Origin: Anaerolinea thermophila
Lineage (GTDB): Bacteria > Chloroflexota > Anaerolineae > Anaerolineales > Anaerolineaceae
Direction of reading: 5' to 3'
NCBI RefSeq assembly: GCF_020723905.1
Contig: NZ_DYHZ01000007.1
Coordinates: 105,839 to 169,838 of the forward strand
DNA length: 64,000 nucleotides
The translations under genes were made by a program, and so were the position numbers. Below the pieces are notes generated by a model, which ran no database searches, was not told where the DNA came from, and worked only from the letters and a program-made list of their open reading frames with translations. The number at the start of each line of letters is the position of its first letter. Within the stretch, counting starts at the first letter, position 1. Below are positions 30,344-32,343 of this stretch, piece after piece.

Positions 30344-30781
30344 TCATCGCGTGTGAATTTCAAACGCAGCGAAGCGGTGTTCGTTAACTTCCGCATTTTG
30401 AAGTGAGGATTCTTGTTTGCGCCATTCTTCTTGTGCCCAGATTTCAAAGTAATCTCCCACCCCTACCACGACGACTTGATTTTCAATCCGGGCAAATTCC
30501 CGCAAATAGGCGGGAATGAGGAAACGCCCCAGTTTATCGAAAACCACAGGAGAGGCTGAGGAAAAGATGAGGCGTTTTAGCGTGCGTGCATCCGGATTGG
30601 TCATCCCCAGTTCATTCAGGTATGCCACTACTCGTTCAAAGACCTCGGTCGTGAGCACCATCAGATTGCGATCGAACCCCTGGGTGATGTACGCGCCGCT
30701 TTTGATCAATTCCCGGTATTTCGCCGGGATGATCACACGGCTCTTGTCGTCAATGTTGTGCTCAAATCGCCCAAGGAACAT
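30344..30781 (-). CDS. mraZ: Transcriptional regulator MraZ
   Basis: 145 residues from the ATG at 30781, which has AGGAT upstream. Two SpoVT/AbrB-like repeats are present: MFLGRFEHNIDDKSRVIIPAKYRE, and later VVFDKLGRFLIPAYLREFA. MraZ forms ring-shaped oligomers and binds short direct repeats in front of its own operon to control dcw transcription. The upstream region has a matching array of GTGG repeats at 10-bp steps. Confidence 0.95.
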   Translation of the reverse strand: MFLGRFEHNIDDKSRVIIPAKYRELIKSGAYITQGFDRNLMVLTTEVFERVVAYLNELGMTNPDARTLKRLIFSSASPVVFDKLGRFLIPAYLREFARIENQVVVVGVGDYFEIWAQEEWRKQESSLQNAEVNEHRFAAFEIHTR

Positions 30782-30808
30782 ATGTTCTAATCCTGTTATA
30801 TATGCCAA

Positions 30809-30827
30809 ACGCCGGAAAACCCGGCGT
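30809..30827. other. Hairpin in the mraZ leader
   Basis: ACGCCGG (30809-30815) pairs perfectly with CCGGCGT (30821-30827) around a 5-nt loop. It lies about 30 nt upstream of the mraZ start codon, inside the predicted leader RNA. There is no T-run on the mraZ strand, so it is not a plain terminator; it may pause transcription or protect the RNA 5' region. Confidence 0.5.
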
Positions 30828-30833
30828 CAGTCC

Positions 30834-30888
30834 CCAACTTTAACCACTTTTTTCCACTCGTATCCACAGTATATCCAAAATTATCCAC
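30834..30888 (-). promoter_or_regulatory. Array of GTGG/TTGG repeats, candidate MraZ operator
   Basis: On the minus strand, GTGG or TTGG units begin at steps of 10, 10, 10, 11 and 10 bp. Plus-strand CCAC/CCAA starts are 30834, 30844, 30854, 30864, 30875 and 30885. One unit reads AAAGTGG. MraZ of E. coli binds TGGG-containing repeats at 10-bp spacing, and Mollicutes MraZ binds AAAGTG repeats. The array spans the promoter spacer, the -10 region and the early leader, as expected for autoregulation. Confidence 0.7.
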
Positions 30889-30896
30889 AAATGCAA
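30868..30896 (-). promoter_or_regulatory. mraZ/dcw operon promoter
   Basis: TTGCAT (30891-30896) and TATACT (30868-30873) with a 17-bp spacer on the minus strand. Transcription would start near 30861, giving a leader of about 80 nt. Confidence 0.6.
30881..30889 (+). promoter_or_regulatory. Perfect DnaA-box sequence in the mraZ promoter
   Basis: TTATCCACA, a 9/9 match to the consensus DnaA box. A one-mismatch copy (GTATCCACA) lies at 30860-30868. Because GTGGAT is also part of the putative MraZ array, this may be coincidental. Confidence 0.4.
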
Positions 30897-30942
30897 GTAG
30901 GAAAACCACTTTTTAACCAATTTGCAAGGAAAGGATTCCACC

Positions 30943-32343
30943 ATGACCCTCCAAAACTATCGCTCTCTCTTCTCCGGCCTGGATGTGCCCGTGCCGTTGC
31001 TCAACGGCAAACAGTGCGTGTACATCAATCTGGACAATGCTGCTTCAACGCCCCCGTTGAAAGCCGTTGAAGAAGCAATCCAGCGATTTCTCCCTTACTA
31101 CAGCAGTGTGCATCGCGGAACAGGTTTCAAGAGCCAGTTATCCACACATGCCTATGAAAGCGCTCGCCGGAAGGTCTTAACCTTTCTGGGTGCCAGCGAG
31201 GATGAACATGTCTGCATCTTTGGGAAGAACACTACCGAAATGATCAATCGGCTGGCAAAACGCTTTCCCTTTTCTCCTGAACGCGATACCGTGATCGTCA
31301 GTTTGATGGAGCACCATTCCAACGATTTGCCCTGGCGGGGGGTGGCAAAAGTTTTACGGGTGGGTTTGCTCCCAGATGGACGTTTGAATGAGGCGCATTT
31401 TGATGCCTTGCTTGAACAGTATGGTTCCCGGGTGGCACTGGTGGCGATCAGCGGCGCCAGCAATGTGACTGGATACCTCAATCCCATTCACCGGTTAGCC
31501 GAAAAGGCTCATCGGGCGGGGGCGCAGATCATGGTAGATGCTGCGCAACTGGCTCCGCACCGGGCAATCAACATGCTCCCACTGGATGATCCGGCGCATC
31601 TGGATTACGTGGTGCTTTCGGCGCACAAAATGTATGCACCCTTTGGCACGGGTGCGCTTGTTGGGCGCAGGGATACCTTTTCCACAGGCGAACCCGATCA
31701 TCGCGGCGGAGGGCAGGTGGAATTCGTCACCGAAGATGAAGTGGAATGGACCGGTGCACCTGAGCGGGATGAGGCGGGAAGTCCCAATACCATCGGGGCG
31801 GTGGCGCTGGCGGCGGCAATGGATCAGTTAATGCGGGTAGGCATGGACGAGGTTGCCCGTCACGAAGCCGAATTGACCGCATACGCATTGGAAAAATTGA
31901 ACGCCATTCCCTGGATGCGCCTGTTTGGCGACCATGATCCGCAACGGGCTTCCCAGCGTTTAGGGGTGATCCCCCTTCAACTGGAAGGCGTGCCTCATTT
32001 TCTGGCGGCGGCGGTGTTGGGTTATGAGTTTGGGATTGGCGTGCGGAGCGGTTGCTTTTGCGCGCACCCGTATTTGCTTCATCTGCTGGAAGTTTCCCCA
32101 ACCGATGCCGCCCGGGTGCGCAAACGCATCTTGAAAGGAGACCGCCGTGAGATGCCCGGTATGATTCGCGCATCCTTTGGACTTTACAACATAACAGAAG
32201 AGATTGATGCTTTTATCGAGGCGCTTACGGCAATCCGCCGCGGGGATTATGAAGGGGTGTATTATCAGGATGTTGCCACGGGAGAATATCAACCGGAGGG
32301 CTGGTCGGTGCGTTTTGAAGATTACTTTACCTTTGAGGGATAA
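30943..32343 (+). CDS. Class V aminotransferase, cysteine-desulfurase-like
   Basis: 466 residues from the ATG at 30943 with AAGGAAAGGA upstream. PLP enzyme of the SufS/CsdA/NifS fold. INLDNAASTPP, then VSLMEHHSNDLPW, AQIMVDAAQLAPH and the PLP lysine in VVLSAHKMYAPFGTGALVG (Lys229) are clear. A Cys-containing loop, GVRSGCFCAHPYLLHL, could carry the persulfide. The C-terminus is longer than in SufS. No SufBCDU genes are adjacent, so whether it desulfurates cysteine or acts on another amino acid is open. Divergent from mraZ. Confidence 0.75.
   Translation: MTLQNYRSLFSGLDVPVPLLNGKQCVYINLDNAASTPPLKAVEEAIQRFLPYYSSVHRGTGFKSQLSTHAYESARRKVLTFLGASEDEHVCIFGKNTTEMINRLAKRFPFSPERDTVIVSLMEHHSNDLPWRGVAKVLRVGLLPDGRLNEAHFDALLEQYGSRVALVAISGASNVTGYLNPIHRLAEKAHRAGAQIMVDAAQLAPHRAINMLPLDDPAHLDYVVLSAHKMYAPFGTGALVGRRDTFSTGEPDHRGGGQVEFVTEDEVEWTGAPERDEAGSPNTIGAVALAAAMDQLMRVGMDEVARHEAELTAYALEKLNAIPWMRLFGDHDPQRASQRLGVIPLQLEGVPHFLAAAVLGYEFGIGVRSGCFCAHPYLLHLLEVSPTDAARVRKRILKGDRREMPGMIRASFGLYNITEEIDAFIEALTAIRRGDYEGVYYQDVATGEYQPEGWSVRFEDYFTFEG

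Follow-up and report, generated by a model that had tools for sequence, protein, structure and literature searches.

The mraZ locus and its predicted promoter

The 64-kb stretch of Anaerolinea thermophila DNA analyzed here (the window) carries mraZ on the minus strand (30344..30781, 145 aa, ATG at 30779-30781; Pfam PF02381, E 9.2e-30) as the first gene of the dcw cluster. It is followed, by Pfam assignment, by genes for a MraW methylase, a penicillin-binding transpeptidase, and a Mur ligase; a small gene without a Pfam match occupies the ftsL position between the methylase and the transpeptidase. A class V aminotransferase gene (30943..32343, plus strand; PF00266) is divergently oriented and shares with mraZ a common gap of 161 bp, bounded by the two start codons (ATG at 30781 and at 30943). 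A close homologue of this aminotransferase adjoins mraZ in 20 other loci, including loci of the same genus.

The predicted MraZ model (mean pLDDT 80.6) aligns to Mycoplasma MraZ structures with Z scores of 18.1 to 19.8 in a re-examination of Foldseek matches from which rows with Z ≤ 5.1 (FliM, CheC, CheX, and others) were set aside, and the protein is an ordinary MraZ. Its residue 14 (30740-30742) makes the motif KSR, where MraZ proteins almost always have KGR; a few members of the order also have KS, and the change could mean a different specificity.

A fixed-consensus promoter scan reported no promoter at the mraZ gap, because TTGCAT, the predicted -35 box, matches just three of the six positions of the scan's -35 hexamer. 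Promoters were called instead with a looser score that ignores the boxes described below and whose weights were set after the relatives had been viewed. This score predicts a -35 box TTGCAT (30891..30896, minus strand) and a -10 box TATACT (30868..30873, minus strand), so that the predicted mraZ promoter reads, in the direction of the gene, TTGCAT, 17 bp, TATACT, and then directly GTGG. An Rfam search of positions 30600-31100 gave no match up to E 1.

A phased array of GTGG and TTGG units

On the mraZ strand, KTGG units start at 30888 (GTGG), 30878 (TTGG), 30867, 30857, and 30847 (all GTGG), and 30837 (TTGG), with steps of 10, 11, 10, 10, and 10 bp. The first-pass annotation had described six GTGG/TTGG units at 10-bp steps across the mraZ promoter (30834-30896); all six are there, between 30888 and 30837 on the minus strand, but one step is 11 bp. 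GTGG accounts for four of the six units and TTGG for the rest. Two further units, at 30909 (GTGG) and 30920 (TTGG), lie beyond this interval on the same strand and stay in phase if one slot (~30898, beside the -35 box) is skipped.

We numbered the units as slots from the end of the -10 box. The core comprises slot 0 (GTGG, 30864..30867), which abuts the -10 box, slot +1 (GTGG, 30854..30857), slot +2 (GTGG, 30844..30847), and slot +3 (TTGG, 30834..30837), all on the minus strand. Satellite units on that strand occupy slots -1 (TTGG, 30875..30878) and -2 (GTGG, 30885..30888) in the promoter spacer and slot -4 (GTGG, 30906..30909) upstream of the -35 box; the unit at 30920 falls in slot -5 (TTGG, 30917..30920), which is unenriched in relatives. 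TTGG is found in three of the eight in-phase units of the window (slots +3, -1, and -5).

The longest KTGG chain with 10/11-bp steps in the 161-bp intergenic region has six units, a length reached by none of 5000 dinucleotide shuffles, while five units were reached by one. When chains of any trinucleotide were allowed, six units again occurred in 0 of 5000 dinucleotide shuffles and five in three. No KTGG chain longer than two exists on either strand of the remaining window. Across the 3.29-Mb genome, the four-unit pattern gave three overlapping matches at mraZ and one elsewhere (C4:209613), within a long open frame; a reversed control of the pattern gave none. Chance is thus excluded for the array, at the level of both the window and the genome, as the first-pass annotation had expected from its periodicity.

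A four-unit core is conserved across Anaerolineae

MraZ was detected in 227 of 249 class, 57 of 61 family, and 114 of 121 order genomes. From 171 loci (L001-L171) we kept 161, comprising 29 class, 52 family, and 79 order loci and the window's own; the order set contains a few family members, and the class loci outside the order come from the 30 best-scoring of the 227 class genomes with a match and are thinly sampled. Nine loci were dropped because they had no mraZ start that fitted the start rule (L032, L067, L074, L088, L102, L105, L109, L114, and L154), and L002 was dropped as a duplicate of L001. A promoter of the window's layout (TTG-16/18-TATAAT-like) was called in 158 of the 161 loci; three lacked a callable promoter, and thinning reduced the 158 to 119.

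Measured from the end of the -10 box, [GTA]TGG peaks at offsets 0 (95 loci), 10 (112), 20 (112), and 30 (101) among the 158 loci, counts that are unthinned for kinship. Four core units of this form are present in 86 loci, three in 49, two in nine, one in three, and none in 11, where wrong promoter calls are perhaps responsible. Under a strict GTGG definition, four units remain in 48 of the 158 loci and three in 77. The bases 5′ of the 390 GTGG units at core offsets are mostly AAA and the base 3′ is mostly G.

Similar arrays occur at named mraZ loci in other phyla. Among the best 80 matches of one scan, which is not a survey, the longest chain is three in 21 of 22 loci from Bacillota, Omnitrophota, and Atribacteria and four in the remaining one, and four or five in 33 of 58 loci labelled Chloroflexota, with three in 11, two in six, and one in eight. 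Across the 158 Anaerolineae loci, the conserved part of the array is a core of four units abutting the -10 box.

Satellite units recur in helical phase

Counted over the 119 thinned loci, slot -1 is filled by GTGG in 14, slot -2 in 25, slot -3 in one, slot -4 in 18, and slot -5 in two, against off-phase controls of 0, 1.0, 0.3, 0.7, and 0.3, respectively. The near-empty slot -3 would be explained by its falling on the -35 box, and slot -5 shows no enrichment in this set. Concentration at a 10.5-bp phase was higher than in any of 200 shuffles, in the spacer as well as upstream, and the satellite enrichment persisted when loci were thinned by upstream identity to 58 (7, 14, and 7 versus 0). With eight of 12 KTGG slots occupied, the window ranks highest of the 119 loci (mode 4); counting GTGG only, it has five occupied slots, and the maximum is six. 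The first-pass annotation had taken the presence of more units than the three or four of known boxes as a sign that a large MraZ ring might bind over the promoter spacer, -10 box, and start site: the conserved core has four units, but the spacer extras do recur in phase throughout the class. Its proposed check for periodicity in relatives, run here, likewise gave a divided answer, since the two same-genus loci keep the core but lack the spacer units. The two spacer units of the window are extras to the core, yet as a class feature the satellites go beyond mere chance.

Whether MraZ also reads the satellites is, in our judgment, an even question. The competing reading, to which we give slightly less than even odds, is that MraZ reads the four core boxes only and that the spacer and upstream KTGG units of the window reflect neutral coincidence or drift. 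A three- or four-box layout in most loci fits this reading, as do the same-genus loci, one of which (L051) has a unit in none of slots -1, -2, and -4 while the other (L097) has slot -4 only, with its unit at -42. Two of the four extra units in the window are moreover TTGG, and one of the four sits in the unenriched slot -5. Coincidence or drift accounts poorly, however, for the class-wide enrichment of slots -1, -2, and -4 in helical phase with the -35 slot skipped.

Alternatively, the upstream satellites might belong to the promoter of the divergent aminotransferase and not to that of mraZ, which we consider improbable. The aminotransferase gene does stand beside mraZ in the 20 other loci mentioned above and shares its 161-bp gap here, but satellites are not clearly commoner where it was detected (10 of 16 loci, window included) than in a comparison set that contains loci too short to reveal the gene (53 of 113). 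With no clear association in relatives, this explanation of the satellites was rejected.

Another candidate reading is that the units are DnaA boxes tying the division genes to replication. Sites in and near the array match the DnaA-box consensus: one perfect and one near match lie within it (TTATCCACA at 30881-30889 and GTATCCACA at 30860-30868), and another perfect match lies at 31138 (31138-31146). The GTGG ladder is conserved across relatives, however, unlike the perfect DnaA box, which on the mraZ strand (TGTGGATAA) occurs between -60 and +45 in only four of 158 loci, the window among them. The genome contains 74 matches to TTATNCACA versus 27 to its reversed control, and a five-box cluster is found elsewhere, at C13:204361-204569. 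With perfect TTATCCACA in four of 158 loci, conservation of the TTATNCACA type was not found when the perfect variant was counted, and we rejected a DnaA-box cluster at mraZ as very improbable. The five TTATCCACA sites of the other cluster (genome G000) fall within ~210 bp and possibly mark a replication origin.

Control by a G-quadruplex has been proposed for the mraZ promoter of Staphylococcus aureus, downstream of which the available text of PMC11796246 describes a G-rich stretch containing several G-tracts. Here this reading has a negligible probability and was rejected for too few G-runs: between -60 and +45 the window has one run of at least three G, so the mraZ strand cannot form an ordinary three-tier quadruplex.

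The mraZ leader carries a covarying hairpin and a LexA-type palindrome

The mraZ leader contains a covarying hairpin (GACGCCGGGTTTTCCGGCGTT, 30808..30828, minus strand). Just behind the ladder, a GC-rich stem is present in 114 of 129 loci (the family and order sets plus the window's own) and in seven of the 29 class loci. In 49 leaders aligned by sequence, 96.4% of stem cells pair, a percentage biased upward because the 49 were drawn from the 114 pre-chosen for having the stem; 21 cells show two-sided changes, compared with 5.9 in shuffles. Rfam returned no match for the hairpin. A role in mRNA stability, or as a barrier between two operators, would be a guess.

The second of these putative operators is a palindrome that overlaps the mraZ start codon (GAACATATGTTC, 30776..30787), and it is a perfect match to the LexA/SOS palindrome GAACNNNNGTTC (GAAC-N4-GTTC type). 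It is one of 42 perfect GAACNNNNGTTC sites in the genome, where the reversed control gives 19; a single match might therefore be due to chance, and the argument rests on conservation. Perfect GAACNNATGTTC is present at the mraZ start codon in 104 of 161 loci (unthinned for kinship), elsewhere upstream in seven, and in neither place in 50, and a GCAC variant paired with GTTC is found at the start in 14; shuffles gave a LexA-type box in 0.34 loci on average. In one of the seven loci with a displaced box (L139), the perfect site lies inside the leader hairpin, which may be coincidence.

The second codon of mraZ varies with the box: where GAAC or GCAC precedes the start, it is TTC in 118 loci and TTT in 14, compared with 11 and 18 where neither is present (Fisher p 1.8e-8, uncorrected for kinship). 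Five distant loci carry the box directly behind the ladder, at offset 39-40 from the end of the -10 box, and a sixth carries it at 75. Since a single family (f46) supplies four of the five, they represent two lineages; placement at offset 39-40 in two lineages means that the LexA-type box is not solely a by-product of the start codon.

In the family set, perfect GAACNNNNGTTC was found in 20 of the 21 lexA promoters for which a start was found (30 loci tried); the window's own lexA carries GAAAACTTGTTC, with one mismatch, and GAACAAATGTGC lies upstream of recA in the same genome. Within the best-match set of named loci, 25 of the 58 labelled Chloroflexota have the box at the start, nine have it elsewhere, and 24 lack it, whereas none of the 22 loci from other phyla has a LexA-type box.

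The palindrome is thus a candidate LexA (SOS) operator, at which LexA would bind. LexA control of mraZ has been proposed in gut Gram-positive bacteria, whose mraZ site was bound by Bacillus subtilis LexA in EMSA (PMC3998124, available text). Our locus resembles that case in the proposed SOS control of mraZ and differs from it in two respects: here the start codon of mraZ lies inside the palindrome, and the palindrome is frequent throughout Anaerolineae alongside the MraZ array (compared with the available text of PMC3998124). Among the open-licence papers whose titles and abstract openings were examined, none reports an SOS-type site on a division operon in Chloroflexota.

Comparison with known MraZ operators

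The array precedes mraZ, the leading gene of the dcw cluster, and consists of direct repeats with a GTG(G) core at one-turn spacing, although three of the eight in-phase units are TTGG. Burkholderia MraZ, as described in the available text of PMC7761207, binds a fragment in which four 7-nt repeats, spaced at a 10-nt pitch, lie downstream of the -10 box and across the start site. The Burkholderia cenocepacia promoter PmraBc shares with the window four repeats of 10-nt pitch that run past the -10 box and over the start, which in the window are a predicted box and a presumed start; it belongs to a different phylum, and further units go unmentioned in that text.

Two MraZ-DNA structures from Mycoplasma are titled as a '4 box promoter' cryo-EM complex and as MraZ with 'its promoter' (PDB 9sz7 and 9r4j), the '4 box' structure being that of Mycoplasma genitalium. 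As far as these entries show, the Mycoplasma operator and the window have in common GTG-core direct repeats at the mraZ promoter and a homologous MraZ fold, whereas the window has GTGG/TTGG units and adds in-phase ones both within the spacer and on the upstream side of the -35 box. The AAA that precedes the GTGG units of relatives agrees with the Mollicutes motif AAAGTG[T/G] given in the available text of PMC8475190; that of PMC5089854 contains nothing on MraZ boxes. The 22 mraZ leaders from Bacillota, Omnitrophota, and Atribacteria carry a GTGG-type ladder with 10/11-bp steps like that of the window; they differ from it in stopping at three units in 21 cases, and none of the 22 carries a perfect GAACNNNNGTTC within 170 bp.

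The location of the array at the mraZ promoter, the consensus and spacing of its units, and its conservation all agree with the resemblance to MraZ sites that the first-pass annotation had pointed out, and we conclude that the four-box core is very probably an MraZ operator of known kind, with MraZ binding to it as the expected consequence. The four GTGG-type boxes stand one helical turn apart and, with the predicted -10 box abutting the core, would run from that box across the transcription start. On one face of the DNA, an MraZ oligomer would place its subunits on successive boxes, one box each, and would span from the -10 box to roughly +27, given the presumed start site. An oligomer bound in this way would block open-complex formation or escape and so repress dcw transcription. 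The in-phase spacer and upstream boxes, if also contacted, may, passing over the -35 box, widen the contact surface and make repression tighter or longer-lasting.

Implications for control of the division genes

With its phased satellites and the LexA-type box at the start codon, this operator of known kind is a variant. We put forward, as a speculative and rather unlikely extension, a composite dcw switch in Anaerolineae that would combine a four-to-eight-rung MraZ ladder on both sides of the -35 box with a LexA operator that has the mraZ start codon in its half-sites, such that DNA damage would release mraZ first and MraZ would then shut down the division genes. On such a ladder, MraZ would form assemblies larger than the four-box complex. 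MraZ operators whose box number ranges from three through four to more offer a natural series for testing how the ring-shaped MraZ oligomer counts boxes, and the recurrence of the palindrome points to an SOS-type site on the cell-division operon that is widespread in Chloroflexota.
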